Shown in pieces: positions 25,458 to 48,502 of a DNA stretch of 64,000 nucleotides. The stretch's first letter is position 1; each line of letters opens with the position of its first letter. The notes beneath the pieces are model-generated. The model was not told where the DNA came from. It searched no databases and worked only from the letters and a program-made list of their open reading frames with translations. The stretch comes from Myxococcota bacterium (lineage in GTDB: Bacteria > Myxococcota_A > Bradymonadia > UBA7976 > UBA1532). A program made the translations under genes and the position numbers. The stretch lies in the NCBI GenBank assembly GCA_963169045.1, contig CAUJDF010000070.1:1-64000 (forward strand), given 5' to 3'.

Positions 25458-25782
25458 CGTCACGAGCCGGCGGGACGTCGGACGGGGCCCCCGTCGGCGG
25501 GTGGCGCATGCGGACGAGGCGCACGCCTTGCCCGGACCGCAGCAGCGTGTCCGTCCACTCGTCGCCGCCGAAGCGGTAGTGGACCTGGAGGCCGCGCGCG
25601 TGACCGTCGAGGAAGGCGGCGCGCGCCCGGTCGAGCGACAGCGGCGCGGCGTCGGCGTGGCGCTCGGCGGCGGCCTTCAGGCGCACTTCGAGCACCTCGG
25701 CGCAGGCGGCGAGGTCGTCGAGCACCCGCCGGATCGTCTCGTCGTCGAGCCAGCCCTCGTGGAGATCGGGGAGAGGTGTCAA
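25435..25782 (-). CDS. Small hypothetical protein at the end of the nap operon
   Basis: 115 residues from a TTG at 25782 whose bases overlap the stop of the ferredoxin gene (TTGA), with GGAGG upstream. Two helices (DETIRRVLDDLAACAEVLEVRLKAA; LDRARAAFLDGHARGL) precede a beta segment (VHYRFGGDEWTDTLLRSGQGVRLVRMRH). No family recognised. Position suggests an accessory role in nitrate reductase assembly. Confidence 0.7.
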   Translation of the reverse strand: MTPLPDLHEGWLDDETIRRVLDDLAACAEVLEVRLKAAAERHADAAPLSLDRARAAFLDGHARGLQVHYRFGGDEWTDTLLRSGQGVRLVRMRHPPTGAPSDVPPARDDGAPRLR

Positions 25783-26114
25783 CGGGCGCCTCCGCGGACG
25801 GGCAGCAGCAGGATGGCGACGTTCGGCGCCGGACAGACGGCGCGGCAGACGCCGCAGCCGGTGCAGGCCGCGGGCGCGAAGACCGGTCGCCCGGCGTCGA
25901 GGCGGATGGCCCCGGGCGCGGGGCAGCGCTCGGCGCACACGGTGCAGAAGGAGCCCTGCCACGCGAGGCACGAGGGGGCGCGGAGCCACGCGGTCACCGC
26001 CGCGCCCGCGCCCGAAGGCGCGGGCGCCTCCGCGGCGGGCGTCCGGACCGGCGCGGCCGCGCGGTCGGGGCGCAGCACACCGCGCAGGAGATCGCGGCGG
26101 GTGAGGGCGGTCAC
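25779..26114 (-). CDS. NapF-like 4Fe-4S ferredoxin
   Basis: 111 residues from a GTG at 26114 that overlaps the napB stop (GTGA). The N-terminus TRRDLLRGVL resembles a twin-arginine motif as in NapF. Two cluster motifs follow: CTVC-x3-CP (with CP in ERCPAPGAIRL) and CTGC-x2-C-x3-CP. The first lacks the middle Cys spacing of a full 4Fe-4S motif as written (C-x2-C-x3-C). NapF helps mature NapA or passes electrons in the cytoplasm. Confidence 0.8.
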   Translation of the reverse strand: MTALTRRDLLRGVLRPDRAAAPVRTPAAEAPAPSGAGAAVTAWLRAPSCLAWQGSFCTVCAERCPAPGAIRLDAGRPVFAPAACTGCGVCRAVCPAPNVAILLLPVRGGAR

Positions 26115-26842
26115 GGCAGCACCTCGGCGCGCTGGTCGAGGGCCGCCGAAGGGGCGTGGCATTGCTGGCAGTTCTGGCGCTCGGGGTGCGACGAACGCAT
26201 GGGCGAGGCGCCGTACGGGCCATGGCACGAGAGGCACTGCTCGCGCATGTGCGTGCGGTGGGGGATCTGCGGCGGCGCGATCGACCACGCGCGCGGCCCG
26301 CTCGGCGGCGCCGGCAGTCCGGCGAACGTGTTGGCGTCGGCGGGCGGGCCGGGCGGGAGCCCCTCGCCGCCGGGCATGGGACCGTCGCCTTCGACGTGGC
26401 ATTGCACGCAGCTCGAGTATTCGGGATGGCTCAGCGGGCGCGCCACGTGGCCGCGGATCGTCGCGCCGTCCCGATGGCAGGCGAGACACTCCGCCGCCGC
26501 CGACTGCCGCACGGGGTGGGGGATCGTGGGCGGCGCGCCGTCGTACGCGCGGCGCGACGCGCGGGCCGCCAGCGTGGCGGCGAGCGTCGTGTCATCGGCG
26601 GGCGGCGGTCCTTGGTTCAACCGGCCGGACCACGGCTCGACCGCCGGCGGCGGCGCCGCGCGCATCTCGGCGTAGCTGCGGGCGGCGGACGCCGGGGCCG
26701 CGGCCGCGGCGGCGGCGGCCCGGGGTGCCCCTGGCGGCGGGCCCGCGCGCGTGCCGACCGTGAAGCCGATCAGGGCCACGCCCACGACCACCGACAGGGC
26801 CACGACGAGGGCGGCCCGCGCCGAAGGCTTCGAGGTCGCCAT
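26111..26842 (-). CDS. napB: Tetraheme double-NapB cytochrome c subunit
   Basis: 243 residues, larger than ordinary NapB (about 150). After an N-terminal membrane anchor/signal (about 10-30) and an Ala/Pro linker there are two NapB-like modules: PPTIPH...CLACH (119-123)...CVQCHV (145-149)...NTF, then PPQIPH...CLSCH (203-207)...CQQCH (225-229). Each module matches the diheme NapB plan, giving four c-type hemes. It transfers electrons to NapA in the periplasm. Its GTGA overlap with the ferredoxin gene and 3-bp gap to napA confirm the operon. Confidence 0.88.
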   Translation of the reverse strand: MATSKPSARAALVVALSVVVGVALIGFTVGTRAGPPPGAPRAAAAAAAAPASAARSYAEMRAAPPPAVEPWSGRLNQGPPPADDTTLAATLAARASRRAYDGAPPTIPHPVRQSAAAECLACHRDGATIRGHVARPLSHPEYSSCVQCHVEGDGPMPGGEGLPPGPPADANTFAGLPAPPSGPRAWSIAPPQIPHRTHMREQCLSCHGPYGASPMRSSHPERQNCQQCHAPSAALDQRAEVLP

Positions 26843-26845
26843 GGC

Positions 26846-29239: not shown

Positions 29240-29510
29240 CACCCACCTCCTGCCGGCCCTCAGCTCCCGTCGAGACGACGTCGGCGAAGTGGGCGAACGC
29301 CACGTCGAGCGCCAGGACGCCGGGCACGTCCTGCAGCGCGGCCCACGCCGCCTTGTCTTCGGCCCGGCTCCGGGTCTCGAGCACCAGCGGCAGCCGGTCG
29401 CCGGTGAGCTCGCCGAGCGTCACCCACGGGTCGGCGCGCAGTGCGCAGAGGGCCGCCTCACGCTCGTCGGCGCGCGACGACAGCACGGCCACGACTCCGA
29501 GCACCGGCAT
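29226..29510 (-). CDS. napD: NapD chaperone for the NapA Tat signal
   Basis: 94 residues with the ferredoxin-like NapD fold pattern: LGVVAVLSSRADEREAALCAL then LVLETRSRAEDKAAWAALQDVPGVLALDVAFAHF. NapD binds the twin-arginine leader of NapA until the cofactor is inserted. The ATG at 29510 shares a base with the stop of the NrfD-like gene (TGATG), and the 3' end overlaps napA. Confidence 0.9.
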   Translation of the reverse strand: MPVLGVVAVLSSRADEREAALCALRADPWVTLGELTGDRLPLVLETRSRAEDKAAWAALQDVPGVLALDVAFAHFADVVSTGAEGRQEVGDGPA

Positions 29511-30733
29511 CACGCTCCCTCCTGATGGCGCATCTTTCCCGTGAACACCGATGTGGCGAGCTTCAGCCCCACGGTGAAGATCATCAGCCCCAGCGCCCAG
29601 ACCCCGGCGGTGATGCGCCACTCGGTCTCGGTGGGGCGGTACTCGACGATCTCGTGGAGCGTGCTGGGGATGAAGCCCGGCACGATGAGCCCCATGCCCT
29701 TCTCGATCCACACGCCGACGAAGGTCAGCACGCACGCGAGGCTGATCCAGCGCAGGTGCTTCTCGGTGTCGCTCACGAGCAGCAGCACCGCGGCGACCAC
29801 GTTCAGCGCGATCGCCGTCCAGATCCAGGGCACGAGGCCGTCGTGGCCGTGCAGGCCGAAGTAGAGGTACTTCGCCGAGGCGGTGTGACTGCCGCCCGAG
29901 TAGAACTCGGTGAAGACCTCCGAGAGCACCATGAACAGGTTCAGCAGCACCGACACGCGCATGATCTTCACGAGCGTGCGCAGCGCGCCGTCGCCGACGT
30001 GGAACGTGGTGAAGCGGCGCACGAGCTGCAGCGCGAGCACGACGAACGCGGGGCCGGTCACGAAGGCCGAGGCGATGAAGCGTGGGGCGAGGATGGCGGT
30101 GTTCCAGAACGGGCGGCCGCCGAGGCCGCTGTACAGGAACGCCGTGACGGTGTGGATCGACACCGCCCACACGATCGAGATCACGACGAAGGGCAGATAC
30201 CATCGGCGCGCCGGCGGCTTGCCGAGGAAACGCATGTAGATGAGATACCCGGTGATGTGCAGGTTCAAGAGCAGGTAGCCGCCGAGCGCGATCACATCCC
30301 ACGTGAGCATCGACACCGGCCAGTTGAAGCGACCGACACCCGGCAGGATGTGCCAGAAGCGGTCGGGCCGACCGAGGTCCACGTTGACGAAGACCAGCGC
30401 CATGACGATGGCGGCGACGGCCAGGATCTCGCCGACGATGACCACGTCGTGCATCTCGTGGTCGTGATAGACGTACGCCGGGATCACCATCGTGACCGCG
30501 CCGGCGGCCAGCCCCACGAGGTAGGTGAAGTTGGCGATGTACAGACCCCACGAGACGTGGTCCGTCATGCCGGTCACGTCCATGCCCTGCACGACCTGGT
30601 GGGCCCAGGCGTTGACGCCGACCAGCATCACCGCGGTGAGGAACGTCATCCAGGCATAGAAGGGCAGGCGTCCGTCGGTGGCGACGCCGACGGCGCGCCA
30701 GAGGAAGCGGGGATAGCTGACGGCGTGTCTCAT
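29510..30733 (-). CDS. NrfD-like integral membrane quinol-oxidising subunit
   Basis: 407 residues with eight to ten transmembrane helices and the NrfD/PsrC family look (MTDHVSWGLYIANFTYLVGLAAGA; DLGRPDRFWHI; SMLTWDVIALGGYL). NrfD-type subunits bind quinol at the membrane and pass electrons to a partner FeS protein. It sits between the FeS protein and napD, so it probably replaces NapC as the electron entry for the nitrate reductase. Confidence 0.9.
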   Translation of the reverse strand: MRHAVSYPRFLWRAVGVATDGRLPFYAWMTFLTAVMLVGVNAWAHQVVQGMDVTGMTDHVSWGLYIANFTYLVGLAAGAVTMVIPAYVYHDHEMHDVVIVGEILAVAAIVMALVFVNVDLGRPDRFWHILPGVGRFNWPVSMLTWDVIALGGYLLLNLHITGYLIYMRFLGKPPARRWYLPFVVISIVWAVSIHTVTAFLYSGLGGRPFWNTAILAPRFIASAFVTGPAFVVLALQLVRRFTTFHVGDGALRTLVKIMRVSVLLNLFMVLSEVFTEFYSGGSHTASAKYLYFGLHGHDGLVPWIWTAIALNVVAAVLLLVSDTEKHLRWISLACVLTFVGVWIEKGMGLIVPGFIPSTLHEIVEYRPTETEWRITAGVWALGLMIFTVGLKLATSVFTGKMRHQEGA

Positions 30734-30743
30734 CGGCCTCCCC

Positions 30744-31643
30744 TCACTCGTCGAAGAAGTAGAAGAACCGCGGGTCGGTGCCGAGGTCCTCCTTCAGGAC
30801 GAAGACCCGCTTGTTCTCGAGCACCCAGCGGATCTCCGACTTCGGGTCGTTCAGATCGCCGAACACGCGCGCGCCCGTCGGACACGCCTCGAGGCAGGCC
30901 GGCAGGCGTCCGTTGCGCGTGCGATGCAGGCAGAACGTGCACTTCTCCATCACCCCCTGCGGGCGGATGCGGTTGGACAGATACGCCTGCACGAGGTTGA
31001 TCTCTTCGGCCGGCACCTCGGGCTTGCGCCAGTTGAAGCGGCGCGCGTGATAGGGACAGGCCGCCTCGCAGTAGCGGCAGCCGATGCACCAGTCGTAGTC
31101 GACGACGACGATGCCATCCGGCTCCTTCCACGTGGCCTCGACCGGACACACCTTCACGCAGGGCGGGTTGCCGCACTGCTGGCACTGCACCGGCATGTAG
31201 AACTTGTCGGGCTGCGGCACGGGGTGGTCGTAGTCGGCGCGCCCCCGCTCCATGTCGAGGCTGCCCTTCGACATCTCCAGCACGCGGATGTAGGACTGGT
31301 GGGTCGATCGGTCGTGGTTGTTCTCGACGTGGCAAGCCTCGGCGCACTTGCGGCAGCCGATGCAGATCGAGAGGTTCAGCGCGTAGCCGAACTCGACGCC
31401 GGGCGTGGGTCTGACGTCCTCGATCGTCGGGCGCGCGCCATACTCGCGCTCGGTCTTCGCCTCGTGCCGGCGCAGCACCGCGCGCATCTCGTCCCAGCTC
31501 AGTTCCTTGTAGTGACGCTGCAGGAACTCGTCGGCCGAGAGGGTCTCGGTCCACTCCGTCAGGGGCGCGAGCGCGCGGGCGAAGGCGGCCGCGCCGAGCG
31601 TCGCGCCGACCCCCTTCAGCGCCGTGCGGCGGTCGACGCTCAT
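30744..31643 (-). CDS. Four-cluster ferredoxin subunit (NrfC/PsrB-like), Tat-exported
   Basis: 299 residues. Twin-arginine leader DRRTALKGVGATLGAAAFA, then four 4Fe-4S Cys groups: CIGC-x2-C-x3-CH, CQQC-x4-C-x3-CP, CIGC-x2-C-x3-CP, and CTFC...C-x3-CP. This is the standard DmsB/NrfC arrangement that carries electrons between an NrfD membrane subunit and a periplasmic partner. Only 10 bp precede the NrfD-like gene; the start overlaps the tetraheme gene's stop (ATGA). Confidence 0.92.
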   Translation of the reverse strand: MSVDRRTALKGVGATLGAAAFARALAPLTEWTETLSADEFLQRHYKELSWDEMRAVLRRHEAKTEREYGARPTIEDVRPTPGVEFGYALNLSICIGCRKCAEACHVENNHDRSTHQSYIRVLEMSKGSLDMERGRADYDHPVPQPDKFYMPVQCQQCGNPPCVKVCPVEATWKEPDGIVVVDYDWCIGCRYCEAACPYHARRFNWRKPEVPAEEINLVQAYLSNRIRPQGVMEKCTFCLHRTRNGRLPACLEACPTGARVFGDLNDPKSEIRWVLENKRVFVLKEDLGTDPRFFYFFDE

Positions 31644-32284
31644 TGGTGGCCTCCCTCGGCGGGGCGCAGGTAGCGGTCGGCCGGCGCCAGCACGGGCTGC
31701 ACGGGGCCGAGGGCCGGCGCGTGCGGCGAGTGGCAGTCGAGGCAGTGGTTGCGGATGCGCGGGCCGCGCCGCAGGTCCCAGTAGCCGTTCATGCCGCCGT
31801 GGGATCCGCGCCGGTAGTCGCGCGTCTGCGGACCGTGGCACTGGCCGCACAGGTCCATGGCCTCGGTGAACGCCCGCGGCGATCCGTCGGCCAGGCGCAG
31901 GCGCGCGCGGTCGGCCGGATCGTGGCAGGCGTCGCAGCTCAGGCCGCCGTGCGCCACCTGGATGTGTTCGTGGGCGCCCGCCGGCGGGCCGTCGCTGCCG
32001 GCGAACGACGTCTCGGGCGTCGGGCCGTGGCACGTCGCGCAGCCCACGCCGATGGGGGCGCCGTTGACGTCCACCGCGGCGGTGTCGAGGGCCCCGAGCG
32101 TCGCGGGCTGGTGGATCGTGACGGGGTGTGTCGGCGCGTCCGCCGGGACCGGCGGCCCGAACTTGCGCTCGGGATCGGTGAAGTCGCCGACGCACGCCGG
32201 CGCCCAGGCCAGGACGGCGATCAGGGCGAACCGGGCGGGGAGGTGGCGGCTCACGCCGCGCTGTCTTCGCAATTCCGGGACCAT
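31640..32284 (-). CDS. Tetraheme c-type cytochrome lipoprotein, first gene of nap operon
   Basis: 214 residues from the ATG at 32284 (a GTG at 32320 is possible). A basic N-terminus and hydrophobic stretch end WAPAC, a fair lipobox (C31). Four heme motifs: CATCH (82-86), CDACH (117-121), CGQCH (146-150), CLDCH (181-185). It lies directly before the NrfC/NrfD pair and would take electrons from them to the doubled NapB. No strong ribosome site was found for either start. Family beyond multiheme cytochrome not recognised. Confidence 0.82.
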   Translation of the reverse strand: MVPELRRQRGVSRHLPARFALIAVLAWAPACVGDFTDPERKFGPPVPADAPTHPVTIHQPATLGALDTAAVDVNGAPIGVGCATCHGPTPETSFAGSDGPPAGAHEHIQVAHGGLSCDACHDPADRARLRLADGSPRAFTEAMDLCGQCHGPQTRDYRRGSHGGMNGYWDLRRGPRIRNHCLDCHSPHAPALGPVQPVLAPADRYLRPAEGGHQ

Positions 32285-34549: not shown

Positions 34550-35062
34550 TCACCCCCGCAGTCGCGCCGCCGCCTGCCGGAGCTGCTCGGCGAGCGCCGT
34601 GCGCCCGGCCGCCGCCGCCGCGTCCGCCTGCGCCTCGTACTGCGCCGCCAGCAGCGCGCGCGTCGCGTCGGCCGCTGCGGGCGGTGCGTTCGGCGGCGGC
34701 TCGACCGCGCGCGGCGCGGCGAACCACGCGAGCAGCGCCGTCCGGACGACGCGCGCGACGTCGTCGGCCTCGGCCTCCCACTGCGCGTCGCTCGTGAAGA
34801 ACCAGGCCGGCTCCCCGGTAAAGGCGGGATCGAGGCGCCGCACCTCGACGGGGCGCTGCACCGCCTCGCAGCTCGCGCCGACGTCGAGCCGCCGGCGGCC
34901 GCGCCAGTCGCGAAACGCGTGCAGCGTCACCCGGTCGGGGTGCCCGGGGGCCGCGCGTTCGTATGCCACGGTGCGGCCCTGCGGATCCCGCTGGTCGGCG
35001 ACCTGCGCAAAGCCCGCCGACTCCAGGACCGGCCCCACCCGCTTCAGGACGGCGTCGATCAT
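34550..35062 (-). CDS. Candidate immunity protein for the RHS toxin
   Basis: 170 residues, no signal peptide. Mixed alpha/beta N-terminal part (IDAVLKRVGPVLESAGFAQV; RVTLHAFRDWRGRRRLDVGASC) and a helical, Ala-rich C-terminus. Its ATG at 35062 overlaps the stop of the RHS gene (ATGA) and AGGAGGG lies upstream inside the toxin gene. Polymorphic toxin loci place the cognate immunity gene exactly here. No immunity family is recognised, so the role is inferred from position. Confidence 0.7.
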   Translation of the reverse strand: MIDAVLKRVGPVLESAGFAQVADQRDPQGRTVAYERAAPGHPDRVTLHAFRDWRGRRRLDVGASCEAVQRPVEVRRLDPAFTGEPAWFFTSDAQWEAEADDVARVVRTALLAWFAAPRAVEPPPNAPPAAADATRALLAAQYEAQADAAAAAGRTALAEQLRQAAARLRG

Positions 35063-38000
35063 GCGGACCCTCCTGGCTGGCGCAACGAGTCGCCGGGCCG
35101 CCGCGGATCCGCCGTGCAGGCCGCGGGGGCGGCCACGAGCGCCGAGCCGCCGCTGAGCACGATGACGGCAAGGCCCGCCAGGCCGATCAGGATCCACTCG
35201 CCGACCGACGGGCCGCTGTCCGGCTCTTCGAGGAGCTCGCGATCGGGCGCCCGCGCCGGTTCGCGGACCGTCTCCGGGACGGGCACGCGCTCGAGCACCG
35301 GGACCGGCACGGGCTCGGGCGGCGGCCGCAGCACGCAGCCGTAGTAGATCATCCCGGGATCGCTCGGGTACGTGTAGAGCCGCAAGTTCTGCCACGCGTT
35401 CAGCGGGAACGGGAACGTCTGGTAGTCGAGCGGCCCCATCATGCTCACGCCCGGGACGGCGTTGCCGCCGGGGAAGTTGACGACGTAGCGCTCGAGCTGC
35501 TGCAGCCCGGCCTCGTTCATGGGCGAGCCGGGCCGGTAGTTGACGGGCTTGATCTCGTAGATCTCGGCGGGCAGCCCGGACACGCCCAGCACCCGATCGA
35601 GGTAGAGCACGACGTCGGGGTAGCCGTAGCCACCGCCGCGGCCGGCCCCCGGGATGGCCGGGCTCTCGATGGAGACGCCCGTGCCGTGGATGGCCACGAA
35701 GGCGCCCTGGACCATTTTGTGAACGAAGTCGCCGATTTCGGTAGAGGACATGCCGGGGACGAAGCAGCCGCCCGCGCTCTCCAGCCCGTAGAGGTCGACG
35801 AAGTTCCGCGCGTTGCCGCGGGCGTACAGATAGGGGTGCAGGTCACCGGTCTCGACGGCCGGATCGGGGCTGAGGTAGCGCCCCGAGGCCGGGTCGTACC
35901 AGCGCGCGAAGTTGGAGTGATAGCCGGTCGCGGGATCGGCGTAGTGATGCCTTACGCGGAAGGCATCATCCTCGCTCGAGGCCGGATCTGGCTCGGCGGC
36001 CTCGAGGGGCGTGTACTCGGCGCGCCGCACGACCGCGCCCGCCTCGTCGGTCGTGGCCATGCACCGGCCGTCGACGTCGGCGTGGTGGAAGCGGACGGCG
36101 ATGGCGCCGGCCCGGTGCACGACCGTCGCGATGCGTTCGCGGCCCAGGTATACGAACTCGCGGCGCTCGACCTCCCGCCCCGCGGCATCGAAGCGCACCT
36201 CGGCCAGGAGCTCCCCGAAGTGCGCGAACACATCATGGGCGCGGCCGTCACCGGTCTCACGCAGACAGAGACGACCGAAGCCATCGTAGTGATAACTGGC
36301 GACTGTGGACGCGCCCTCGGTGACGGCCACGAGGCGGCTCCAGCCATCCCATCGCAGCCGCCGGCCGCCCTCGACGGTGCGGTTGCCGGCCTCGTCGTGC
36401 TCGACGGGCGTTCCGCCGAGCGCCGTGATCTGCTCGCCGCGGTAGGCATGGGTGACGGCCGCCCCGTCGCGTGTCAGGCGCAACAGGTTGCCGGCGGCGT
36501 CGAAGTCGAAGGCGAAGTCGCCGTTGCGACAGACGGCGGTGCGCAGGCGGCCCACGAGGTCGTAGGTGTATCGCTCCACGCGGCCGTCGCCCCACATGGC
36601 GCTGCGCAGGAGGTTGTCGGCGCGGCGCTCGTAGCGCACCTCGATCGGACCGCTCCGGATGCGCTCGACCGCCATGCCCGCGTCGCGTCGGACGTCGAGC
36701 TCGAGGCCGTTGCCGAAGGTGAGCCCGTCGACCGCCCCGAGCGGATGCCAGCGGATGTCGCGCGCGACCACCCGGCGCACGCCGCCGTGCTCGACGGCGA
36801 CGGTGGCGACGCGGTGCGGATCCGCGGCGGACGTCTCGTAGACGACCGCCATGCCGCTCGGGTAGCTGACGCGCCGCAGCGCGCCGCCGGTGTGTCGCGC
36901 GTAGGCGAGCGCGTGGGCGACGCCGTCGACGACGAGCGTCTCCGCCGCCACCTGCCCGTCGGCGGCGTAGCGCACGTCGACGCGCGAGCGCGCCGTCGCC
37001 ACCGAGGCGAGGCGCCCGGCCCCGTGCGGATCGGACGGATCGTCGAAGCGCGCCGTGATCCGGTCGGCGGGGTCGCCGGTCGTCTGCTCGAGGACGCGGC
37101 CGAGCGCGTCGCGCCGGTAACGCTGCACCGATCCGCCCGGACCGCGGCGCTCGACGAGGAAGCCGGCCTCGTCGTAGAGGAAGCGGTGCTCGGCGCCCCA
37201 GCTCCGGCGAAGGCGGCACAGGCGCAGCCGGTCGTCGTAGGTGAAGGCCGTCTCGTTGCCCTCGGCGTCGCGCCGCAGGATGGGCGGTCCGGCCGGCGCG
37301 CGCTCGTAACTGGAGAGGCGGACGGGCGCCGCCGGGCCCGCGTCGTCCCGCCCCTCGCGCCGGACGCCGACGAGCGCTCCTCGGGCGTTGCGCTCGAGGA
37401 CGGAGACGTGGCCGTCCGCGTGGTCGATGCGCACGCGGCGCTTCAGCGGCGTGTAGGTGTGCCGGTCGGAGAGCGAGCCGTCGGCGGCGCGCGGCTGGTA
37501 CGTGCGGGCGACGAGGGCCGCGTCGTTCCAGTCGACGCGGAACGCCGTGCCGCGGGGGCCGCCGGCGTCGCTCACGGTGGCCTCGCGCCGCTCGCCGCGC
37601 TCGGTGAGGGCGTAGTCGACGCGCAGCAGCGCCCCCGCGGGGCCGGCCTCGGGGTCCGTCGCGGTCACCACGATCGCGGTCACCCGGTCGAGGTCGTCGG
37701 TCTCGTAGCGCGCGAACGTGCCGTCGAGCAGCGAGACCACCGAGAGGCGGCCCGACGGGGCGTAGCGCCAGCGCACGGTGCCCTCGGGCCCGGTGCGGCG
37801 CGTGGGGCGCCCCGCGGCGTCGGTCTCGTGCTCGACGACCCCGCCGTCGGGCAGCACGATGCGGCACGGCTGGCCGAAGCGGTCGTAGTGGCTGTAGGTC
37901 GTGGTGCCGGCGGGCGTGGTGTGCGTGCGGATCTGCCCGCGGTCGTTGAGCGACGGGGCGTTCGCGGGCCAGTAGCCGACCTCGAGCGTCACCACGCCGG

Positions 38001-39765
38001 GCGCCGGGCCGACCGTGCGGACGAGCTGGCCGCGCGCGTTGCGCTCGAGCTCGATGCGCCGCTCCCAGGGCACGGTCCGGCCGTCGGCGTCGAGCGTGAA
38101 GCCCCGCTCCAGCACGCGGTGGACCTCGCGCGTCGGGCGCGCGTTCGGCCGCGGGCCCGGCAGGACGTCGTGGTCGAGGACGAGCGTCTGCCGGCCCGCG
38201 CCGAGCAGCGAGGGCGTGCTCCGCTCGGCGAGCAGGCCGTTGGACGCGTATTCGAGCTCGACCGACCGCTCGACGTCGGTGCCCGCGAACTCGGTCGAGC
38301 GCCGCAGGCGTCCCGCGTCGTCGTACGTGCGCCGGTGACGGTTGCCGTCGAGGTCCTCGTACTCGAGGACGTGGCCCGAGGGGTCGACGGCGAACGGCGC
38401 CGCGCGGTCGGGATCGACGGTCTTCGCGCCGTCGGCGTCGGCGACACCGGCGAGCCGGCCGGCCGCGTCCCACTCGAAGCGGCTGCGGAGCTTCGCGCCG
38501 TAGCGGACGTGGGTCACGTGGGCGGGGTGGCGGGCGTCCTCGTAGCCGAAGGTCTGCACGCGCCCGGTGGCGTCGGTCACGGCGACGAGGCGGTCGCCGT
38601 CGTACGCGTACGTTGCGATCGGCGCGGCGGCGTCGGGCCCGGCGAGGCCGACCAGCCGGCCGCCGTCGTAGTCGAGCCGGAGGGCGCGGCCGTAGGCGTC
38701 GCGCACCGCCACGAGCAGGCCGTCGGCCCACTCGAACGCGAGCACGTCGCCAGCGTCGTCGGACAACGCCTGGATGCGCCCATCGACAGCGAGGCGGTAG
38801 CCGTAGCCCCAGCGGTCGGTGTAGAGCCAGCCGCCCGCCAGCGCGGCCAGCGTCGCCGCGTCGCCGGGGGCCGCCGCCAGGCCGTCGGGCGTGCGACGGT
38901 GCAGGCGCGTGCCGCCGTCGGGCAGCACGAGCGCCACGTACATGCCGTGGTCCGCGACGTCGAACTGCCACCCGTGGCGCCAGCCGCGGCCGAGGGGGCC
39001 GTCGTCGAGGCGCGCCGTCGAGTACCAGCGGGTGAAGCGCAGGCACTGGTGGTCGCCGGCGAGGCGGTAGTCGGCGTACGGACCGAGGACGCGCACGCCC
39101 ACGCGCCGTGCCGCCGCCTGCGCGAGCGCCGACGCCCAGGCCGCCTCCGCTTCGGCGGCGCGCAGCGAGTCGGCGGCGGCCGCCTGCGCGTCGGCGGCGG
39201 TCTTCGCCTCGCGCTCCGCGTCGCGCGCCGCCGTCTCGGCGCGCTCGACCGCCTCGACGGCGGCCCGCTCGGCGGACCCGGCGTCGTCGAGCGACGCGCC
39301 GGCGGCCTCGACGGCCTCGTCGGCGAAGCGGGCGGACCGTTCGGCGTCGAGCATCTCGTCGGCCGCCTCGTCGGCCTCTTCGTCGGCCTCGTCGAGCTCG
39401 GCCTCGGCCTCCTCGAGCGCCTGTTCCGCGTCGTCGAGCGCCCGGCGCGCGGCCTCGAGCCGCTCCGCGACGGTCTCGAGCCGCAGCGCGGCCGCCTCGA
39501 CCTGCGCCTCACGCTGCGCGACGGCCTCCTCGGCCGCCAGCAGTCGCTGCTCGGCCGCCGCCACCGCGTCGGCCGACGCCGCCGCGCTCTCCGCCGCGGA
39601 CTCGACGGCGGCCTCCGCGGCCGAGGCCTCCTCTTCGCGGGCGGCGAGGTCGGCCTCCGCCGCCGCCAGCGCCTGCTCGGCCTGCTCGAGCTGCGCGGCG
39701 AGCGTGTCCCGGCGCGCCTCGGCCTCGGCGATCCGCGCTTCGAGCGCCTCGATCTCGTCGGACAC
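35059..39765 (-). CDS. RHS/YD-repeat polymorphic toxin with coiled-coil N-terminus and PD-(D/E)xK-like C-terminus
   Basis: 1568 residues. Residues 1 to about 215 are a long Glu/Ala coiled coil with no signal peptide or PAAR motif. About 235-1330 is the YD-repeat shell (many G-x4-Y-x-YD-x2-G-R variants) closing with the RHS core end RYLSPDPAVETGDLHPYLYARGNARNFVDLYGLE. The variable tail (about 1330-1568) has H1349, then YPDVV (D1384), EIYEIKP (E1404, K1406) and QLERY, a PD-(D/E)xK nuclease-like set with the Q-x3-Y helix. A Pro-rich stretch and one transmembrane segment (about 1524-1545) end the protein. Likely a nuclease toxin released from the shell by autocleavage. Confidence 0.88.
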   Translation of the reverse strand: MSDEIEALEARIAEAEARRDTLAAQLEQAEQALAAAEADLAAREEEASAAEAAVESAAESAAASADAVAAAEQRLLAAEEAVAQREAQVEAAALRLETVAERLEAARRALDDAEQALEEAEAELDEADEEADEAADEMLDAERSARFADEAVEAAGASLDDAGSAERAAVEAVERAETAARDAEREAKTAADAQAAAADSLRAAEAEAAWASALAQAAARRVGVRVLGPYADYRLAGDHQCLRFTRWYSTARLDDGPLGRGWRHGWQFDVADHGMYVALVLPDGGTRLHRRTPDGLAAAPGDAATLAALAGGWLYTDRWGYGYRLAVDGRIQALSDDAGDVLAFEWADGLLVAVRDAYGRALRLDYDGGRLVGLAGPDAAAPIATYAYDGDRLVAVTDATGRVQTFGYEDARHPAHVTHVRYGAKLRSRFEWDAAGRLAGVADADGAKTVDPDRAAPFAVDPSGHVLEYEDLDGNRHRRTYDDAGRLRRSTEFAGTDVERSVELEYASNGLLAERSTPSLLGAGRQTLVLDHDVLPGPRPNARPTREVHRVLERGFTLDADGRTVPWERRIELERNARGQLVRTVGPAPGVVTLEVGYWPANAPSLNDRGQIRTHTTPAGTTTYSHYDRFGQPCRIVLPDGGVVEHETDAAGRPTRRTGPEGTVRWRYAPSGRLSVVSLLDGTFARYETDDLDRVTAIVVTATDPEAGPAGALLRVDYALTERGERREATVSDAGGPRGTAFRVDWNDAALVARTYQPRAADGSLSDRHTYTPLKRRVRIDHADGHVSVLERNARGALVGVRREGRDDAGPAAPVRLSSYERAPAGPPILRRDAEGNETAFTYDDRLRLCRLRRSWGAEHRFLYDEAGFLVERRGPGGSVQRYRRDALGRVLEQTTGDPADRITARFDDPSDPHGAGRLASVATARSRVDVRYAADGQVAAETLVVDGVAHALAYARHTGGALRRVSYPSGMAVVYETSAADPHRVATVAVEHGGVRRVVARDIRWHPLGAVDGLTFGNGLELDVRRDAGMAVERIRSGPIEVRYERRADNLLRSAMWGDGRVERYTYDLVGRLRTAVCRNGDFAFDFDAAGNLLRLTRDGAAVTHAYRGEQITALGGTPVEHDEAGNRTVEGGRRLRWDGWSRLVAVTEGASTVASYHYDGFGRLCLRETGDGRAHDVFAHFGELLAEVRFDAAGREVERREFVYLGRERIATVVHRAGAIAVRFHHADVDGRCMATTDEAGAVVRRAEYTPLEAAEPDPASSEDDAFRVRHHYADPATGYHSNFARWYDPASGRYLSPDPAVETGDLHPYLYARGNARNFVDLYGLESAGGCFVPGMSSTEIGDFVHKMVQGAFVAIHGTGVSIESPAIPGAGRGGGYGYPDVVLYLDRVLGVSGLPAEIYEIKPVNYRPGSPMNEAGLQQLERYVVNFPGGNAVPGVSMMGPLDYQTFPFPLNAWQNLRLYTYPSDPGMIYYGCVLRPPPEPVPVPVLERVPVPETVREPARAPDRELLEEPDSGPSVGEWILIGLAGLAVIVLSGGSALVAAPAACTADPRRPGDSLRQPGGSA

Positions 39766-39777
39766 GACCTTCCCCGT

Positions 39778-40560
39778 TCAGGCCACCGGCGTGCCGCCGG
39801 AGCCGGGCTCGACCGGCGAATCTTCGCGGAGCTCCTTGCCGGGCTCCGCCGGATCGCCGTCCCTCTCCTCGGCGTCGTTGGCGCGCTCGAGCAGCGCGTC
39901 GAGCGCTTCGTAGAGCGCCTCGAGCGCGTCGTCGGCCGCGTCGAGCGCTTCCTGCAGAGCGTCCCGGCGGGCCTCCGCCTCGTCGCGCCGCTGCTCGGCG
40001 GCCTCGCGCGCCCGCTCCGCCCGCTCGTGCCGGTCCTCGGCCTCGGCGTGCGCCGCCTCCGCCTCGTCGTGCGCCTGCGCGGCGTCGTCGCGCCCCGTCT
40101 CGGCCTCGTCGCGCGCCTGCTCGGCCTCTCCCTGCGCCGCTTCGGCGTCGCCGTGCGCCGACTCCGCGTCGTCGTGCGACTGCTCGGCCGCGCCGTGCGC
40201 CTCTTCGGCCTCGTCGCGGGCCTCGGTGGCCTCGTCGACCGCCGTCTCCGCCTGCTCGCGGCGCGCCGACGCTTCTTCTTGCCGCCGGCCCGCCTCGCCC
40301 CACGCCTCCCGCGCCCGCTCGGCGTCGGCGCCGGCCTTGCGGGCCGCACGCTCGGCGGCCTCGCGACGCGCCCCGGCCTCCGCGCGGGACGACCGCGCGC
40401 GTTCCAGCGTCGCCCGGGCCTCGGCCGCGGCGCTCGCCGCCCGGGCGCCCTCCCCCGCCCGACGCTCGGCCTCGGCGCGCTCGGCATCGAGCCGCGCCTG
40501 CGCCGCGCCGGCCCGCGCGTCGGCCGCTTCGCGCGCGGCGTTGGCGATGCACGGGTTCAT
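39778..40560 (-). CDS. Long coiled-coil protein of the RHS operon
   Basis: 260 residues, almost all Ala/Glu/Arg/Asp heptads (AEARATLERARSSRAEAGARREAAERAARK and similar patterns across residues 5-225), with an acidic, Pro-containing tail. No enzyme motif or signal peptide. It resembles the coiled-coil N-terminus of the RHS protein encoded 12 bp downstream, so the two could pair or arise by duplication. It might act as a scaffold or loading adaptor (inference). Confidence 0.78.
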   Translation of the reverse strand: MNPCIANAAREAADARAGAAQARLDAERAEAERRAGEGARAASAAAEARATLERARSSRAEAGARREAAERAARKAGADAERAREAWGEAGRRQEEASARREQAETAVDEATEARDEAEEAHGAAEQSHDDAESAHGDAEAAQGEAEQARDEAETGRDDAAQAHDEAEAAHAEAEDRHERAERAREAAEQRRDEAEARRDALQEALDAADDALEALYEALDALLERANDAEERDGDPAEPGKELREDSPVEPGSGGTPVA

Positions 40561-40562
40561 CG

Positions 40563-41882
40563 TCAGTCCTCCTCGGCCTCCGCCCAGAGCGCCTCGAAGC
40601 GGATGCCCACGAGCGCCGCGAGCGCGGTCGAGTCGAAGTACAGGCTCATGTCGTCGTAGGCGTAGATCGAACCCGCCGTCCAGTTGTGGCTGCCGAGCAG
40701 CACGTGGCGGCCGTCGACGGCGAGCGCCTTCGAGTGCGTGGTCACTTCGACGCTGTCGTGCCGCACCGGCACGCCGCGCGCCCGCAACAGGGCGAAGGCG
40801 CCCTCGTTCACGATCCGCGAGCCGGCCACGCCGCCCTCGGCGTCGAGGTCGAAGAGCACGCGCACGTCGACCCCGCGGGCGTGGGCGGCGGCCACGGCCT
40901 CGACCAGCGCGTTGGCGGGGTGGTCGGGCTCGTCGGCGAGGTACCGGGCGAAGAACATCACGAGCCGCACGGAGCCCTGCGCCGAGTCGAGGAGCTGGCG
41001 CGCGAGCGTCGCGTAGCGGGCCCCCTTCGCCATCGACGCGCCCCGCGCGGCCACCGCCTCGGCCTCCATCGCGGCGACCGCCGACCGGCGCGCGAACCAG
41101 GCGTCGACGTCGGCGGCGCGCACGCGCACCAGCGGGTGGGGGTTGGCCTCGGCCTCGAGCTCCTGCGCGGCGCGCTCCAGCGTGCGGAGGAGCCGCCGGG
41201 CCGGCGTGGTCCCGGGCGCGCCGGCGTCGTCGAACGGGGGCCACTCGCCGCCCGTGTCGCGCAGCAGCCCGGCCAGCGTCGCCGGCCCCGGCTCGGCCAC
41301 GAACGCCGCCAGGGCCGGGTGCACGAACGCGAACGCGCCCGCGGGGCGCCAGGCGCGGATCCACGGGCGCGCGCGCTCGAGGGCCTCCGCCGAGAGGATG
41401 CGTCGCTCGCGGAGGTCGTCGACCGTGGCGAAGGGACCGGCTTCCCGGCGGCTCGCGGCGAGGCGGCGGGCCGTCGTCGGCCCGAAGCCGGGGCGCGCGG
41501 CGAGCGCGGCGACGCTGGCGGTGTTGACGTCGATGCGGTCGACCACCTCGGCCGGCGCCAGCAGCCCGCCGAGCGCCGCGTCGGGCGGCGTCGCCGTGGC
41601 GACCGCACGCGACTGCACGAGGCGGCGCGCGTCGGTGGGCCGCCCGAGCTCGTGGGCCCAGCCCGTGATCACCCGCGCGAGCGCCTGGCGCGTGCGCAGC
41701 GCCACCCAGGCGCGGTAGGCCTCGGCCCCGGGCGCCTCGCCCGGCGCGACGAGCGCCCGGTTGCACCGGCCCGCGCACCGCAGCCACCAGCGGGCGAGGC
41801 GGCGCTCGCCGGGGCCAGGCTCGATCCCCGCGAAGTCGGCGAGGACGTCGTCGAGGGCGGCCTCAATTGACGAGAGGGGCAT
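40563..41882 (-). CDS. Phospholipase D-like protein with helix-hairpin-helix region
   Basis: 439 residues. A helical N-terminus is followed by a ComEA-like helix-hairpin-helix at about 115-165 (IDVNTASVAALAARPGFGPTTARRL...FATVDDLRER), which usually binds DNA. The C-terminal third is a PLD domain with one HKD motif, THSKALAVDGRHVLLGSHNW (H-x-K-x4-D). A single HKD implies a dimer, as in Nuc-type nucleases. It is separated by 2 bp from the coiled-coil gene and overlaps the preceding PLD gene by 20 bp. Confidence 0.85.
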   Translation of the reverse strand: MPLSSIEAALDDVLADFAGIEPGPGERRLARWWLRCAGRCNRALVAPGEAPGAEAYRAWVALRTRQALARVITGWAHELGRPTDARRLVQSRAVATATPPDAALGGLLAPAEVVDRIDVNTASVAALAARPGFGPTTARRLAASRREAGPFATVDDLRERRILSAEALERARPWIRAWRPAGAFAFVHPALAAFVAEPGPATLAGLLRDTGGEWPPFDDAGAPGTTPARRLLRTLERAAQELEAEANPHPLVRVRAADVDAWFARRSAVAAMEAEAVAARGASMAKGARYATLARQLLDSAQGSVRLVMFFARYLADEPDHPANALVEAVAAAHARGVDVRVLFDLDAEGGVAGSRIVNEGAFALLRARGVPVRHDSVEVTTHSKALAVDGRHVLLGSHNWTAGSIYAYDDMSLYFDSTALAALVGIRFEALWAEAEED

Positions 41883-42441
41883 CGCCCGCCTCCGGGGGCT
41901 GGGAGAGGTCGACGCGGAGGCCGTCGAACCAGAGCCGGTCGAGGTGGTGGGCGACGACGCGCGCCAGCGGCGTCGATCGGACCCACACGCTGTCCTCGCG
42001 GCTCCGGCCGAGCGCGTTGGGCGACCAGTTGTGGCTGCCGAGCAGCGCCTCGCGCTCGCCGAAGACGGCGATCTTGTCGTGCAGGCTCGCGCCGCCGGGC
42101 GCGCGCACCATGCGGACGGGCACCCCGCGGCGCTCGAGGTAGCCGGCGGCCACCCGGTTGGCGGTGTCGATGGGGGAGCCCTCGCGCCCGGTGCCCAGCA
42201 CGATGCGGACGTCGACGCGGCGCCAGGCGGCGTCGGCGAGCGCGTCGAGGATCGCCCGCACGCGCCCGTCGCGGTCGTCGGCGGGCAAGGGGTGGACGAT
42301 GAACACCGCGACGCGGATGCTGCGCGTCTCCTGCTCGATGCGGTCGAGCAGCCAGGCGTGGTAGTCGCCGTCGGAGACGAGCCGGCACGCCTCGACGTCG
42401 AGCCACGGCAACCCGTCGACGGGCGTGAACGCGCCGGCCAT
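41863..42441 (-). CDS. Short phospholipase D-like protein
   Basis: 192 residues forming a single PLD domain. LHDKIAVFGEREALLGSHNW gives H-x-K with the usual GSHN follow-on, but the Asp of HKD is replaced (Gly/Glu at that position), so activity is uncertain unless it pairs with the downstream PLD protein. VAVFIVHPL and VDVRIVLGTG are the core strands. No signal peptide. Its first base overlaps the stop of the upstream small gene. Confidence 0.85.
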   Translation of the reverse strand: MAGAFTPVDGLPWLDVEACRLVSDGDYHAWLLDRIEQETRSIRVAVFIVHPLPADDRDGRVRAILDALADAAWRRVDVRIVLGTGREGSPIDTANRVAAGYLERRGVPVRMVRAPGGASLHDKIAVFGEREALLGSHNWSPNALGRSREDSVWVRSTPLARVVAHHLDRLWFDGLRVDLSQPPEAGDAPLVN

Positions 42442-42743
42442 CAGGGCTCGCCGCGCGGGGCAGCGGCGAGGGCGGCGAGCACGGCTTCGACCCGCTCGCG
42501 GGCGAGCGCCTGCCGGTTGCGCGACGCGCCGGCCAGGCGCCCGTGGCGGTCGGCCAAGCCCTCGAGGGCCATCGCCCGCTCGTAGCTCGCCTCGGTCAGG
42601 GCCTCGCCGCGCGCCGGGGCCGCGGCATCGCGTCGCGCCACGAGCGCGGCCCGCTGCGCGGCGAGGTGGACCTGTTCGTCGAGGAGCGCGTCGTCGAGCG
42701 CGCGGAACGCGTCGAAGAGCGCCAGGTTCAGCTGCGTGCTCAT
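42441..42743 (-). CDS. Small helical protein, first gene of the RHS/PLD operon
   Basis: 100 residues, all predicted helix (LFDAFRALDDALLDEQVHLAAQRAALVARRD; YERAMALEGLADRHGRLAG). No family recognised. Its stop shares a base with the start of the PLD gene. Composition resembles the coiled-coil parts of the other operon members. Confidence 0.7.
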   Translation of the reverse strand: MSTQLNLALFDAFRALDDALLDEQVHLAAQRAALVARRDAAAPARGEALTEASYERAMALEGLADRHGRLAGASRNRQALARERVEAVLAALAAAPRGEP

Positions 42744-44674: not shown

Positions 44675-46561
44675 TCAGGGCGTCACCGCGACGCGATAGC
44701 GGAAGGCCGCCTCGGCCGACGTCCGGAAGCCGAGCGTGTGGTCGCGGTTGGCCCCGTTCACCGTCCAGCGGACGAGGAAGCTGCCCGGGGGCACCCGCTC
44801 CCGACAGTCCACGCCGCGCGTGCCGCAGAACGTGAGGTCGGCGCACGCGACGCCGTCGACGCTGAACGTGCGGCACGACAGCAGCGCGTCGCGCTCGTAG
44901 TAGACCCTCGCGACCTGGCTCGGGGCGTCGCCGAGCCGCGCCCGGAAGAAGTCGACCTCGCCGGGACGCAGCACGCCGAGCAGCCCCTCGCCCAGGGCGT
45001 CGGCGTCGGCCGCGCGGTCGTTGGGCTCCGACTCCGTGGCCTCGCAGGCGTTGGTGCAGGCGTCGCCCGGCACCCACTCCTCGTCGTTGCCGTCGTCGCA
45101 GCCCTCGAAGCCCGCGGCGCCGGGCGCGAGATCGGCGCGCCGGATGCCATCCCCGCAGGTCGCCGTCCGGCAGCGAGCGGTGCACGCGTCGTCGTCGGCG
45201 TCGTTGCCGTCGTCGCACATCTCGCCCACGTGCGCGATGGCGTCCCCGCAGCGCGCGATCGCGCAGGCGTTCGTGCAGCCGTCGGCGTCGTCGTCGTTGC
45301 CGTCGTCGCATTCTTCCGCGTCCGCCTGAACGAAGCCGTCGCCGCAGCGCGCGGCCACGCAGCCGGCGACGCACGCGTCGTCGTTGCCGGCGTCGCCGTC
45401 GTCGCACGCCTCGCCGGCCTGCACGAAGCCGTCGCCGCAACGCGCCGGCAGGCAGGCCGTCGTGCAGGCGTCGGTGTCGTCCTCGTTGCCGTCGTCGCAC
45501 CCCTCGCCCGCCTGGGTCATGCCATCGCCGCACCGCGCGATCCGGCAAGCGTTGGTGCAGCCGTCGCCGTCGTCGTCGTTGGCGTCGTCGCAGCCCTCGC
45601 CGTCCTGCACGACGCCGTCGCCGCAGCCCGGCACGCGGCACGCCGCGGTGCAGCCGTCGGTCTCCGCGTCGTTGCCGTCGTCGCACGCCTCGCCCGCCTG
45701 CACGATGCCGTCGCCGCAGAACGGCAGCCGGCACCCCGCGGTGCAGCGGTCGGCGTCCTCATCGTTGCCGTCGTCGCACTGCTCGCCGTCCTGCACGATG
45801 CCGTCGCCGCAGGCGGGCAGGCGGCACTCGTTGGTGCAGCCGTCGTTCGTCGCGGCGTTGCCGTCGTCGCACTGCTCGTCGCCGCTGCGCACGCCGTTGC
45901 CGCAGCGCGTGCGGCTGCAGTTGGTGTCGCAGCCGTCGCCGTTCTCGACGTTGGCGTCGTCGCACTCCTCGCCCGGGCCGACCTCGCCGTCGCCGCAGCC
46001 GGCCGCCACGCACGCCGCCGCCTCGCCGGGCGACGTGGCGCACACGCGGCCCGCGGGGCAGTCGACGGCATCGGCCCACACGCCGCGGGGCGTGCACTCC
46101 TGGATGCGCTCGCCCCGGCAGCGGCTCTGCCCCGGCTGGCAGTCGTCGCCGCCGCAGTCGACGGGGCAGGCCTCGAACGACTCGCCCGGCTCGCACACGC
46201 CGTTGCCGCAGCCGGTGGGCGCCCGGCAGAGGATGCCGTCGGTCGGCGACACCCGCTCGACGCCGAAGTCGCATGGCACGACGAGCGCGCAGACCAGGCG
46301 GCACGACCCCGAGCCGACGCAGGCGTTGCTCACCGCGCCGCTGCCCGAGGCGCCGAGCGGCCCGTCGGACACCGCGATGCTGCCCGCCTCGTTGCAGACC
46401 GCCTCGGCGTCGGCCTCGAGCCGGGGCACGGTGTTCGGCGGACACTGCGCGACGAGGTCGTTCTGCACGCACTCCCTCGCAGCCCGCGTGCCCTGCTCCG
46501 CGCCCTCTTGGGTGCCGCAGGCCGCGATCCAGACGGCGCCGAGCGCCAGGAAACGTCTCAT
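44675..46561 (-). CDS. DUF4215 Cys-rich repeat lipoprotein, copy 2
   Basis: 628 residues. Signal peptide ending WIAAC, an N-terminal domain shared with its neighbour (NDLVAQCPPNT...GSGAVSNACVGSGSCRLVC...PTDGILCRAPTGCGNGVC), then about ten DUF4215 repeats of the form CGDGIVQ-x-GE-x-CDDGN-x3-D-x-C-x3-C, and a C-terminal beta domain (ESEPNDRAADADALGEGLLGVLRPGEVDFF) resembling pre-peptidase C-terminal folds. Surface-exposed, function unknown. GAGGT precedes the ATG; 9 bp separate it from copy 1. Confidence 0.88.
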   Translation of the reverse strand: MRRFLALGAVWIAACGTQEGAEQGTRAARECVQNDLVAQCPPNTVPRLEADAEAVCNEAGSIAVSDGPLGASGSGAVSNACVGSGSCRLVCALVVPCDFGVERVSPTDGILCRAPTGCGNGVCEPGESFEACPVDCGGDDCQPGQSRCRGERIQECTPRGVWADAVDCPAGRVCATSPGEAAACVAAGCGDGEVGPGEECDDANVENGDGCDTNCSRTRCGNGVRSGDEQCDDGNAATNDGCTNECRLPACGDGIVQDGEQCDDGNDEDADRCTAGCRLPFCGDGIVQAGEACDDGNDAETDGCTAACRVPGCGDGVVQDGEGCDDANDDDGDGCTNACRIARCGDGMTQAGEGCDDGNEDDTDACTTACLPARCGDGFVQAGEACDDGDAGNDDACVAGCVAARCGDGFVQADAEECDDGNDDDADGCTNACAIARCGDAIAHVGEMCDDGNDADDDACTARCRTATCGDGIRRADLAPGAAGFEGCDDGNDEEWVPGDACTNACEATESEPNDRAADADALGEGLLGVLRPGEVDFFRARLGDAPSQVARVYYERDALLSCRTFSVDGVACADLTFCGTRGVDCRERVPPGSFLVRWTVNGANRDHTLGFRTSAEAAFRYRVAVTP

Positions 46562-46570
46562 GGCTGAACC

Positions 46571-48502
46571 TCAGCGGTTGTCCGTCACGCGGAGCTGGTA
46601 GGTGATGGTGTCGGCCACCGCCGACGTGATCCCGAAGGCGTACTCGCCGCCCACGGTGCCCGGGAACGTCCAGCGGAAGCCGCTGCGCGTGCGCACCAGC
46701 GGGAAGCAGGGGTTGGGATCGACGGGGTTCGGGTCCACCAGGCGCGGGCAGGCGCCGTTGCGCACCGCGCACAGGGTCACCGGACACTGCTCGGCGCCGC
46801 GTCGCGAGAAGCTCAGGTCGAACGTCCAGGTGAGCTCGAGCCCGTCCGGGCACTGCTCGCCCTGGCCCACGCCGCAGCCCAGATGGAACTGGAAGTAGTC
46901 GGTGTCGCCCCGCGCGAGCTGGCCGTGGACGAAGCCGGCGTCGATGCGGTCGCCGGCGTTGAACTGGTTGTTCGGCTCGGTCTCGGTGGGCTCGCAGCTC
47001 GCGTTGCAGCCGTCGTAGGCCACGCGGTCGCTGCCGTCGTCGCAGTACTCGAAGCCCGGCTGGCCCGCGGTCAGGTCGGTGCGCACGACGCGGTCGCCGC
47101 AGCGCGCCGCCGCGCAGCCGTTGGTGCAGGCGTCGGCGTCGTCGGCGTTGCCGTCGTCGCAGACCTCGTCGGGGTGCGCGAGGCCGTCGCCGCACCGCGG
47201 AAAGACACACTGCCGCGTGCACTCGTCGTCGTCGCTCTCGTTGCCGTCGTCGCACGCCTCGACGCCGGCCCGCACGAAGCCGTCGCCGCAGACCGCCAGC
47301 GCGCAGCCCTGCGTGCAGCCGTCGTCGTCGTCGTCGTTGCCGTCGTCGCACGCCTCGACGCCCGCCTGCACCACGCCGTCGCCGCACCGGGCCGCCGCGC
47401 AGTCGTTCGTGCACGCGTCGTCGTTGGCGTCGTTGCCGTCGTCGCAGACCTCGCCCGCCTGCTGGATGCCGTCGCCGCAGCCCGGCCGCCGGCAGTCGTT
47501 GCTGCACTCGTCGGCGTTCTCCTCGTTGCCGTCGTCGCAGCCCTCGCCGTCCTGCGCCACGCCGTCGCCGCAGGCCGCGCGGACGCACGTCGTCACGCAC
47601 GCGTCGGTGTCGTCGTCGTTGCCGTCGTCGCACTGCTCCCCGGCCTGGACGAAGCCGTCGCCGCACTCGGGCAGGCGGCAGAAGGCCGTGCAGGCGTCGG
47701 TGTGCGCGTCGTTGCCGTCGTCGCACGCCTCGCCGGCCTGCACGATGCCGTCGCCGCACCGCGGGAGCTGGCAGTCGTTGGTGCAGTCGTCGTTGTCGGC
47801 GCGGTTGCCGTCGTCGCACGCCTCGCCCGCGGTGCGCAGGCCGTTGCCGCAGCCGGTCAGCGTGCAGTTGGAGTCGCAGCCGTCGCCCTCGGTGCCGTTG
47901 CCGTCGTCGCAGAGCTCGCCCTCGTCGGCGACGCCGTCGCCGCACGAGCTGACGCGGCACGCCGCCCCGCCCTCGGCGCGGCACTGCTGCGGCGCCGGGC
48001 ACGGCTCGGGCTCGGCCCACACCCCGCGCGGCGTGCACCGCTGCAGGTCGTTGCCCACGCAGCGCATCTCGCCCGGCGAGCAGTCCATGCCGCCGCAGTC
48101 GATCGGACAGTCCTCGAACGACTCCCCGGGGTCGCACACGCGGTTGCCGCAGCCCGTCGGCGCGCGGCAGATGATGCCGTCGGTGGGCGAGACGCGCTCG
48201 ACGCCGAGCTCGCAGGGCGCGAGCAGCTCGCAGACCAGGCGGCACGAGCCGCTGCCCACGCAGGCGGCCGACACCGCGCCGCTGCCCGAGCGCCCGATCG
48301 CGTTCTGCGACACGTCGACGCTGCCCTGCGCCGAGCAGACCGCTTCGGCGTCGGCCTCGAGGCGGGCCATCGTGTTCGGTGGGCACTGCGCCACCAGGTC
48401 GTTGCGCGCGCACTCCGTGGCGGGTGCCGTCCCCGACTTCGCCCCCTCTTGCGCCGTACATCCCGCGCTCGTGAGCGCGACCAGGAACCACAGGCGTCTC
48501 AT
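46571..48502 (-). CDS. DUF4215 Cys-rich repeat lipoprotein, copy 1
   Basis: 643 residues, paralogue of the next gene with the same order: lipoprotein signal (ending TSAGC), shared N-terminal domain, ten to eleven DUF4215 repeats, and a C-terminal beta domain beginning TETEPNNQFNAGDRIDAG. The ATG at 48502 has GGGGGAGA upstream; the longer in-frame start at 48586 lacks a signal peptide. First of a two-gene operon. Confidence 0.88.
   Translation of the reverse strand: MRRLWFLVALTSAGCTAQEGAKSGTAPATECARNDLVAQCPPNTMARLEADAEAVCSAQGSVDVSQNAIGRSGSGAVSAACVGSGSCRLVCELLAPCELGVERVSPTDGIICRAPTGCGNRVCDPGESFEDCPIDCGGMDCSPGEMRCVGNDLQRCTPRGVWAEPEPCPAPQQCRAEGGAACRVSSCGDGVADEGELCDDGNGTEGDGCDSNCTLTGCGNGLRTAGEACDDGNRADNDDCTNDCQLPRCGDGIVQAGEACDDGNDAHTDACTAFCRLPECGDGFVQAGEQCDDGNDDDTDACVTTCVRAACGDGVAQDGEGCDDGNEENADECSNDCRRPGCGDGIQQAGEVCDDGNDANDDACTNDCAAARCGDGVVQAGVEACDDGNDDDDDGCTQGCALAVCGDGFVRAGVEACDDGNESDDDECTRQCVFPRCGDGLAHPDEVCDDGNADDADACTNGCAAARCGDRVVRTDLTAGQPGFEYCDDGSDRVAYDGCNASCEPTETEPNNQFNAGDRIDAGFVHGQLARGDTDYFQFHLGCGVGQGEQCPDGLELTWTFDLSFSRRGAEQCPVTLCAVRNGACPRLVDPNPVDPNPCFPLVRTRSGFRWTFPGTVGGEYAFGITSAVADTITYQLRVTDNR

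Follow-up and report, generated by a model that had tools for sequence, protein, structure and literature searches.

The N-terminal place of RHS proteins is usually occupied by PAAR, spike, WXG or signal sequences. At the end of the core, Rhs1 of Photorhabdus self-cleaves at an aspartyl-protease motif, a two-Asp ending (PMC8636562). The Tox-REase-9 signature comprises GxxxH, E, D, ELKP and YxxE, and its partner Imm54 is marked by GF and Q (PMC3482391). In myxobacteria, Myxococcus xanthus is reported to have two Rhs proteins, Rhs4 and Rhs5, that kill independently of T6SS (PMC10433427).

The locus described here lies in a 64,000-nt stretch of DNA from a Myxococcota bacterium (contig CAUJDF010000070.1; below, the window). 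With the Rhs effectors of T6SS (RhsP, Tse15, Rhs1/Tre23, Tse5) it shares an RHS core, a DxxGL ending, a C-terminal toxin domain and an adjacent candidate immunity gene, but it differs from them in the absence of a PAAR or spike domain, the loss of the first 14 positions of DUF6531, a coiled-coil N terminus, and the presence of PLD and coil partners. We consider it probable (about 0.6) that the locus represents an Rhs-class polymorphic-toxin operon in which, less certainly, coils would be used for docking and the PLD proteins would serve as an accessory co-effector. As a class assignment, the toxin-immunity half is well supported. The features are as follows.

42441 to 42743, minus strand: 100-aa helical protein of no known family (open reading frame)
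41863 to 42441, minus strand: 192-aa PLD protein with one HKD motif (PLDc_2, 8.7e-17)
40563 to 41882, minus strand: 439-aa HHH_3 plus PLDc_2 protein (open reading frame, Pfam, paralogy to the 192-aa protein)
41355 to 41537, minus strand: ComEA-like HHH_3 of the 439-aa protein, aa 116-176 (1.7e-13)
40584 to 40997, minus strand: PLDc_2 of the 439-aa protein, aa 296-433, with one canonical HKD motif (HSKALAVD...GSHNWT)
39778 to 40560, minus strand: 260-aa heptad coiled-coil protein (open reading frame, 3.50 period)
35059 to 39765, minus strand: 1568-aa coiled-coil/DUF6531/RHS protein with a predicted nuclease domain (open reading frame, Pfam, nearest solved chains)
39121 to 39765, minus strand: heptad coil at the N terminus (aa 1-215) of the RHS protein (period 3.50)
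35782 to 39102, minus strand: RHS cage, aa 222-1328, with the C-terminal end ...SPDPAVETGDLHPYLYARGNARNFVDLYGLE (domain matches, solved-chain comparison)
35296 to 35781, minus strand: predicted PD-(D/E)xK toxin domain, about aa 1329-1490 (relatives, alignments, model, fold search)
35134 to 35205, minus strand: hydrophobic helix, aa 1521-1544, close to the C-terminal end (helix in the model, low confidence)
34550 to 35062, minus strand: 170-aa probable immunity protein (position, weak collinear match to partners of related toxins)

All six minus-strand genes of the preliminary description are present as open reading frames at these positions, and its domain assignments were borne out or supported. 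Both proteins that it called PLD proteins contain PLDc_2 (5.8e-18 and 8.7e-17, Pfam), the coiled coils that it reported in the 260-aa and 1568-aa proteins have a 3.5-residue period above the 99% shuffle level, the 1568-aa RHS toxin matches RHS_repeat (PF05593, 5.6e-36), and an alignment of the family as well as a comparison of structures support its PD-(D/E)xK-like tail. As also described there, genes neither overlap nor stand apart by more than 12 bp, the junction of the two PLD genes excepted. By coordinates, the 100-aa and 192-aa genes overlap by 1 bp and the two PLD genes by 20 bp, 2 bp separate the 439-aa PLD gene from the 260-aa coil gene, 12 bp lie between the coil gene and the RHS gene, and the toxin gene shares its last 4 bp with the start of the 170-aa gene. 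Using a codon-usage model trained on the rest of the window, we compared the annotated frame of each gene with the five others; it scored best for all six, with a clear margin for the PLD and RHS genes and a modest one for the 260-aa coil gene (0.17 versus 0.12 for the antisense frame). The genes that flank the operon are unrelated to it: a glutaredoxin-domain protein gene 67 bp upstream on the same strand, with an OsmC protein beyond, and, downstream and convergent, an SRPBCC-like gene with an ArsR-like gene (read by eye). Elsewhere in the window, two adjoining lipoprotein-like genes with near-alike N termini (CVQNDLVAQCPPNT / CARNDLVAQCPPNT) at 44675-48502 are probably a tandem duplication, and a gene run at 25779-32254 resembles, by eye, an alternative complex III/molybdopterin oxidoreductase operon.

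The nearest solved relatives of the RHS core are T6SS Rhs effectors (8h8a, 5e-26; Tse15, 7q97, Tse5, and Tre23). The DUF6531 match (2.1e-6) is partial and starts only at profile position 15, while the end of the core is recognized by TIGR03696 (2.6e-13). It reads SPDP...VDLYGLE, a boundary motif before the variable tail, and this DPxxx...DxxGL ending resembles the aspartyl-protease motif of Rhs1; the DxxGL motif is what is seen here of a putative aspartyl autoproteolysis. The hydrophobic period of 3.50 in aa 1-215 reaches a power of 18.5, versus 8.2 at the 99% level of shuffles, and that of the separate 260-aa protein 11.7 versus 8.5; both are true heptad coils. No close relatives of the N-terminal part of the RHS protein were found in 360 genomes. 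Its best match (G252), a 2471-aa RHS protein of different build, was rejected as a counterpart.

Residues conserved in the predicted toxin domain are G1345xxxH1349, E1367, D1384, E1404-I-K1406-P, Q1423, and Y1427. Searches of Pfam, NCBIfam and PDB sequences with the tail gave no match, 360 genomes held no close relative, and the bare EIYEIKP pattern retrieved no RHS-tail relative from viral contigs. Relatives were found by a contig scan steered by a three-row alignment, two rows of which were guide sequences written by us and not real proteins; the scan used the pattern [ED][VI]YEIKP[VI] and a helix-1 pattern, and each match held up in a tblastn search that used the window sequence. Twelve loci were recovered, nearly all of them C-terminal tails of RHS proteins of Paenibacillus, Lachnospiraceae relatives, and Treponema; in two of them, L086 and L093, the reading frame is interrupted or cut short where the match lies. 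The carriers differ: L088 and L097 have helical N termini read as WXG/LXG-like, and L087 has a cysteine-rich, PAAR-like start (by eye). When the alignment is restricted to real sequences, the invariant positions are G, H, G, D, E, YEIKP, Q, and Y.

The structure model of the tail has a mean pLDDT of 63.8 and is good over the core only, with most blocks of residues 21-110 at 80 to 91. The order of its core elements is helix-strand-strand-helix, as expected for PD-(D/E)xK, and the top PDB matches of a fold search were mostly PD-(D/E)xK enzymes (SSO0001, McrC, Exo5, PspGI, EcoRII), the best at an E value of 0.059 and none reaching 0.001. The tail carries the GxxxH, E and D residues of Tox-REase-9 (PF15650) and EIKP for ELKP, and it likewise has an RHS carrier and a GF-type partner gene. 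It differs in falling outside the Pfam model, in that YxxE was not identified in it, and in its weak immunity similarity. PF15650 matches 3 of 10 members of the tail family at E values up to 1 (best, 1.8e-4). Tox-WTIP (PF15654) resembles the family in that two tail relatives match it (1e-9) and the family ends with a hydrophobic helix, but it is described as pore-forming with two membrane helices, and it does not match the window tail. In several relatives, a hydrophobic segment stands at the same place as the aa 1521-1544 helix; among L087-L097 (Bacillota, Spirochaetota), the tails have such a segment near the C terminus and include the two that match Tox-WTIP. The REase and WTIP signatures may sit within a single tail of the nuclease family.

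Where relatives of the toxin have intact frames, one gene then follows at -1 to 36 bp (the L088 gap depends on the chosen start codon). The 170-aa protein is collinear with six of these partners over 110 columns at an hhalign E value of 0.055, the lowest among the window proteins and with a score reached by 2 of 200 shuffles; over short stretches, raw scores above this one were obtained for two longer proteins of the window. HMMER gave no significant score, the protein matched no family, and only weak matches were found in the phylum. Its model is fairly confident (pLDDT 77.6), a fold search with it returned no clear PDB relative, and a GF, part of the GF and Q motif of Imm54, follows the first helix. 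A PHROGs baseplate-hub match covered only the helical C-terminal part and was not accepted as homology. By position, and with suggestive homology, we regard the 170-aa protein as the probable immunity protein. Together, the toxin and the gene downstream of it appear to fit a known polymorphic-toxin pattern, with a Tox-REase-9-like tail and an Imm54-like partner, and thus no new toxin mechanism is needed for this half.

In the upstream half, the 439-aa protein begins with a region of no assigned family, followed by HHH_3 and then PLDc_2, in which the HxKxxxxD plus GSxN motif of PLD superfamily HKD nucleases is canonical. The motif of the 192-aa protein reads HDKIAVFG...GSHNWS, with G in place of the usual D of HxKxxxxD. 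To judge from 32% identity between their PLD domains over 139 aa (E value of 4e-13), the two proteins are paralogs. Both resemble PLD nucleases and not lipases, the nearest solved chains of the 192-aa protein including mitochondrial cardiolipin hydrolase (Zucchini type) and the endonuclease 1byr. Like Nuc/Zucchini-type single-HKD nucleases, the nearest solved relatives of the pair, each chain has one HKD motif; the difference here is that two unlike chains are co-encoded, one with an HHH domain and one without the Asp of HxKxxxxD. Their sequences suggest a DNA nuclease built from two different PLD chains. No relatives were found for the 260-aa coil protein, and none, on viral contigs or otherwise, for the 100-aa protein, from which the heptad period is absent.

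The preliminary description had proposed scoring the co-occurrence of the flanking genes with RHS genes; no ortholog of a PLD protein was found, either with or without RHS. For the 439-aa protein, the search used exact 8-residue patterns, an insensitive method, across 84,980 species genomes and also covered 16 genomes of the order, 57 of the class, and 379 of the phylum; for the 192-aa protein, it covered 360 genomes. The matches that the PLD proteins do have in the phylum are PLD genes, mostly two-domain, with no RHS neighbours in the stretches examined. We also surveyed the DUF6531-RHS loci of the class by six-frame open reading frames (31 stretches from relatives and 4 of the same genome, several of them short contigs). 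None of these 35 other loci has a PLD pair like that of the window, and the sole weak PLD match is a separate gene with a signal-peptide-like start, a few kilobases from the RHS match; as a control, the same search with outside PLD queries recovered both window PLD genes. No such pair adjoins the related toxins, and a literature search for Rhs with PLD and HHH genes found no such papers. An empty-site comparison showed the flanking genes to be non-syntenic in the single relative with a good match. The combination of a PLD pair with RHS is not common in the class, the companion set of four upstream genes is unusual and so far unique to one genome, and it is the operon spacing in that genome that ties the toxin to the PLD and coil genes.

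As reported earlier, the operon encodes no export adaptor: PAAR, VgrG, a signal peptide and the known T6SS adaptors are all absent from it, and domain searches of the RHS protein and the operon detected no PAAR, VgrG/spike domain or N-terminal adaptor site. The genome carries T6SS core genes (TssC, 1.6e-127; TssB and Hcp by HMM). They lie in a T6SS core locus on contig C61 (L114, L115), in which ClpV and TssA, F, G, K, and M were also recognized by eye. Two Phage_base_V-DUF6531-RHS fusions are encoded elsewhere in the genome, one of them beside a DUF2169 gene. That fusion (L062:6637-15832, contig C48) is accompanied by further Phage_base_V genes, and the cluster looks like a T6SS spike-effector cluster; the second (L063:7200-13090, contig C108) is followed by a 158-aa gene, possibly its immunity gene.

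Under the preferred reading of the locus as an Rhs-class toxin operon, and by analogy with solved Rhs proteins, the RHS shell would fold as a closed cage round the nuclease and cleave itself after the DLYGL motif; the nuclease would be released into a neighbouring cell and cut nucleic acid there. Kin would be protected by the 170-aa protein. Less certainly, the N-terminal heptad coil may be a docking part that stands in for the usual PAAR/spike module and has the 260-aa coil protein as its partner, and the two single-HKD PLD proteins may join as a heterodimeric DNA nuclease, set on DNA by the HHH domain, which would act as an accessory (co-effector) of the same weapon. The T6SS of the same genome would be the likeliest delivery route and is the one we prefer, with no adaptor seen. 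It is tempting to go further and assign the PLD pair, the separate coil and the 100-aa protein to one complex dedicated to assisting the Rhs toxin. The free coil would then bind the RHS coil and so take over from PAAR/EagR-type loading, and the HHH-bearing PLD heterodimer would be a second nuclease, delivered with the caged nuclease or acting before it; we regard this extension as tentative and rather unlikely.

An ordinary Rhs toxin-immunity pair may instead stand beside an unrelated PLD/HHH nuclease module for defence or DNA processing, the two being co-transcribed by chance. This account, which we hold possible if somewhat unlikely, is favoured by the lack of a second example of the combination among the 35 class loci and the loci of related toxins, and by the scores of the PLD domains against the defence-system PLDs DrmC (DISARM) and MkoB (Mokosh). 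Those matches, however, lie mainly over the PLD domain, which is the likeness to DISARM and Mokosh; their partner genes (helicase, methylase, kinase) are unmatched among the other operon proteins in a PADLOC scan of the operon's proteins. The spacing of the coil gene, 2 bp from the PLD genes and 12 bp from the RHS gene, also argues against separate modules, as does the fact that the RHS N terminus is a heptad coil like the 260-aa protein.

The absence of an export adaptor fits two further accounts. The RHS weapon could be displayed on the surface or released by lysis, independently of T6SS, as Rhs4 and Rhs5 of M. xanthus are (PMC10433427); the report of this mode in myxobacteria speaks for it, but Rhs4 and Rhs5 are about 4000 aa long with signal sequences, whereas the window RHS protein starts with a coiled coil and has no visible signal, and we think this route improbable. 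Alternatively, an RHS protein that stays inside could kill the cell that makes it when phage infects, and the PLD pair would act as sensor or effector. PLD nucleases do occur in DISARM and Mokosh, and the operon has no export signal; yet an RHS cage, a C-terminal toxin and an adjacent immunity gene are hallmarks of exported polymorphic toxins, no sensor domain is present, defence-family matches are limited to PLD domains and generic coils, and no relatives were found in the viral contigs or phage records searched. We think self-killing very improbable. The preliminary description had suggested a distinct contact-dependent, contractile or intracellular defence system; such a system was not shown. 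With its T6SS core genes and two spike-RHS fusions, the genome offers a contractile route, though one not linked to the operon, and nothing specific supports intracellular defence.

If the upstream genes are unrelated to the toxin, what remains is a toxin-immunity pair of the ordinary Rhs type, carried in an unusual way. N-terminal modules decide how Rhs toxins leave the cell. The pairing of a coiled-coil N terminus with a coil on another protein, if true, would be a way of loading that the literature searched does not describe, and an Rhs toxin linked with two PLD nucleases would point to multi-enzyme warheads.
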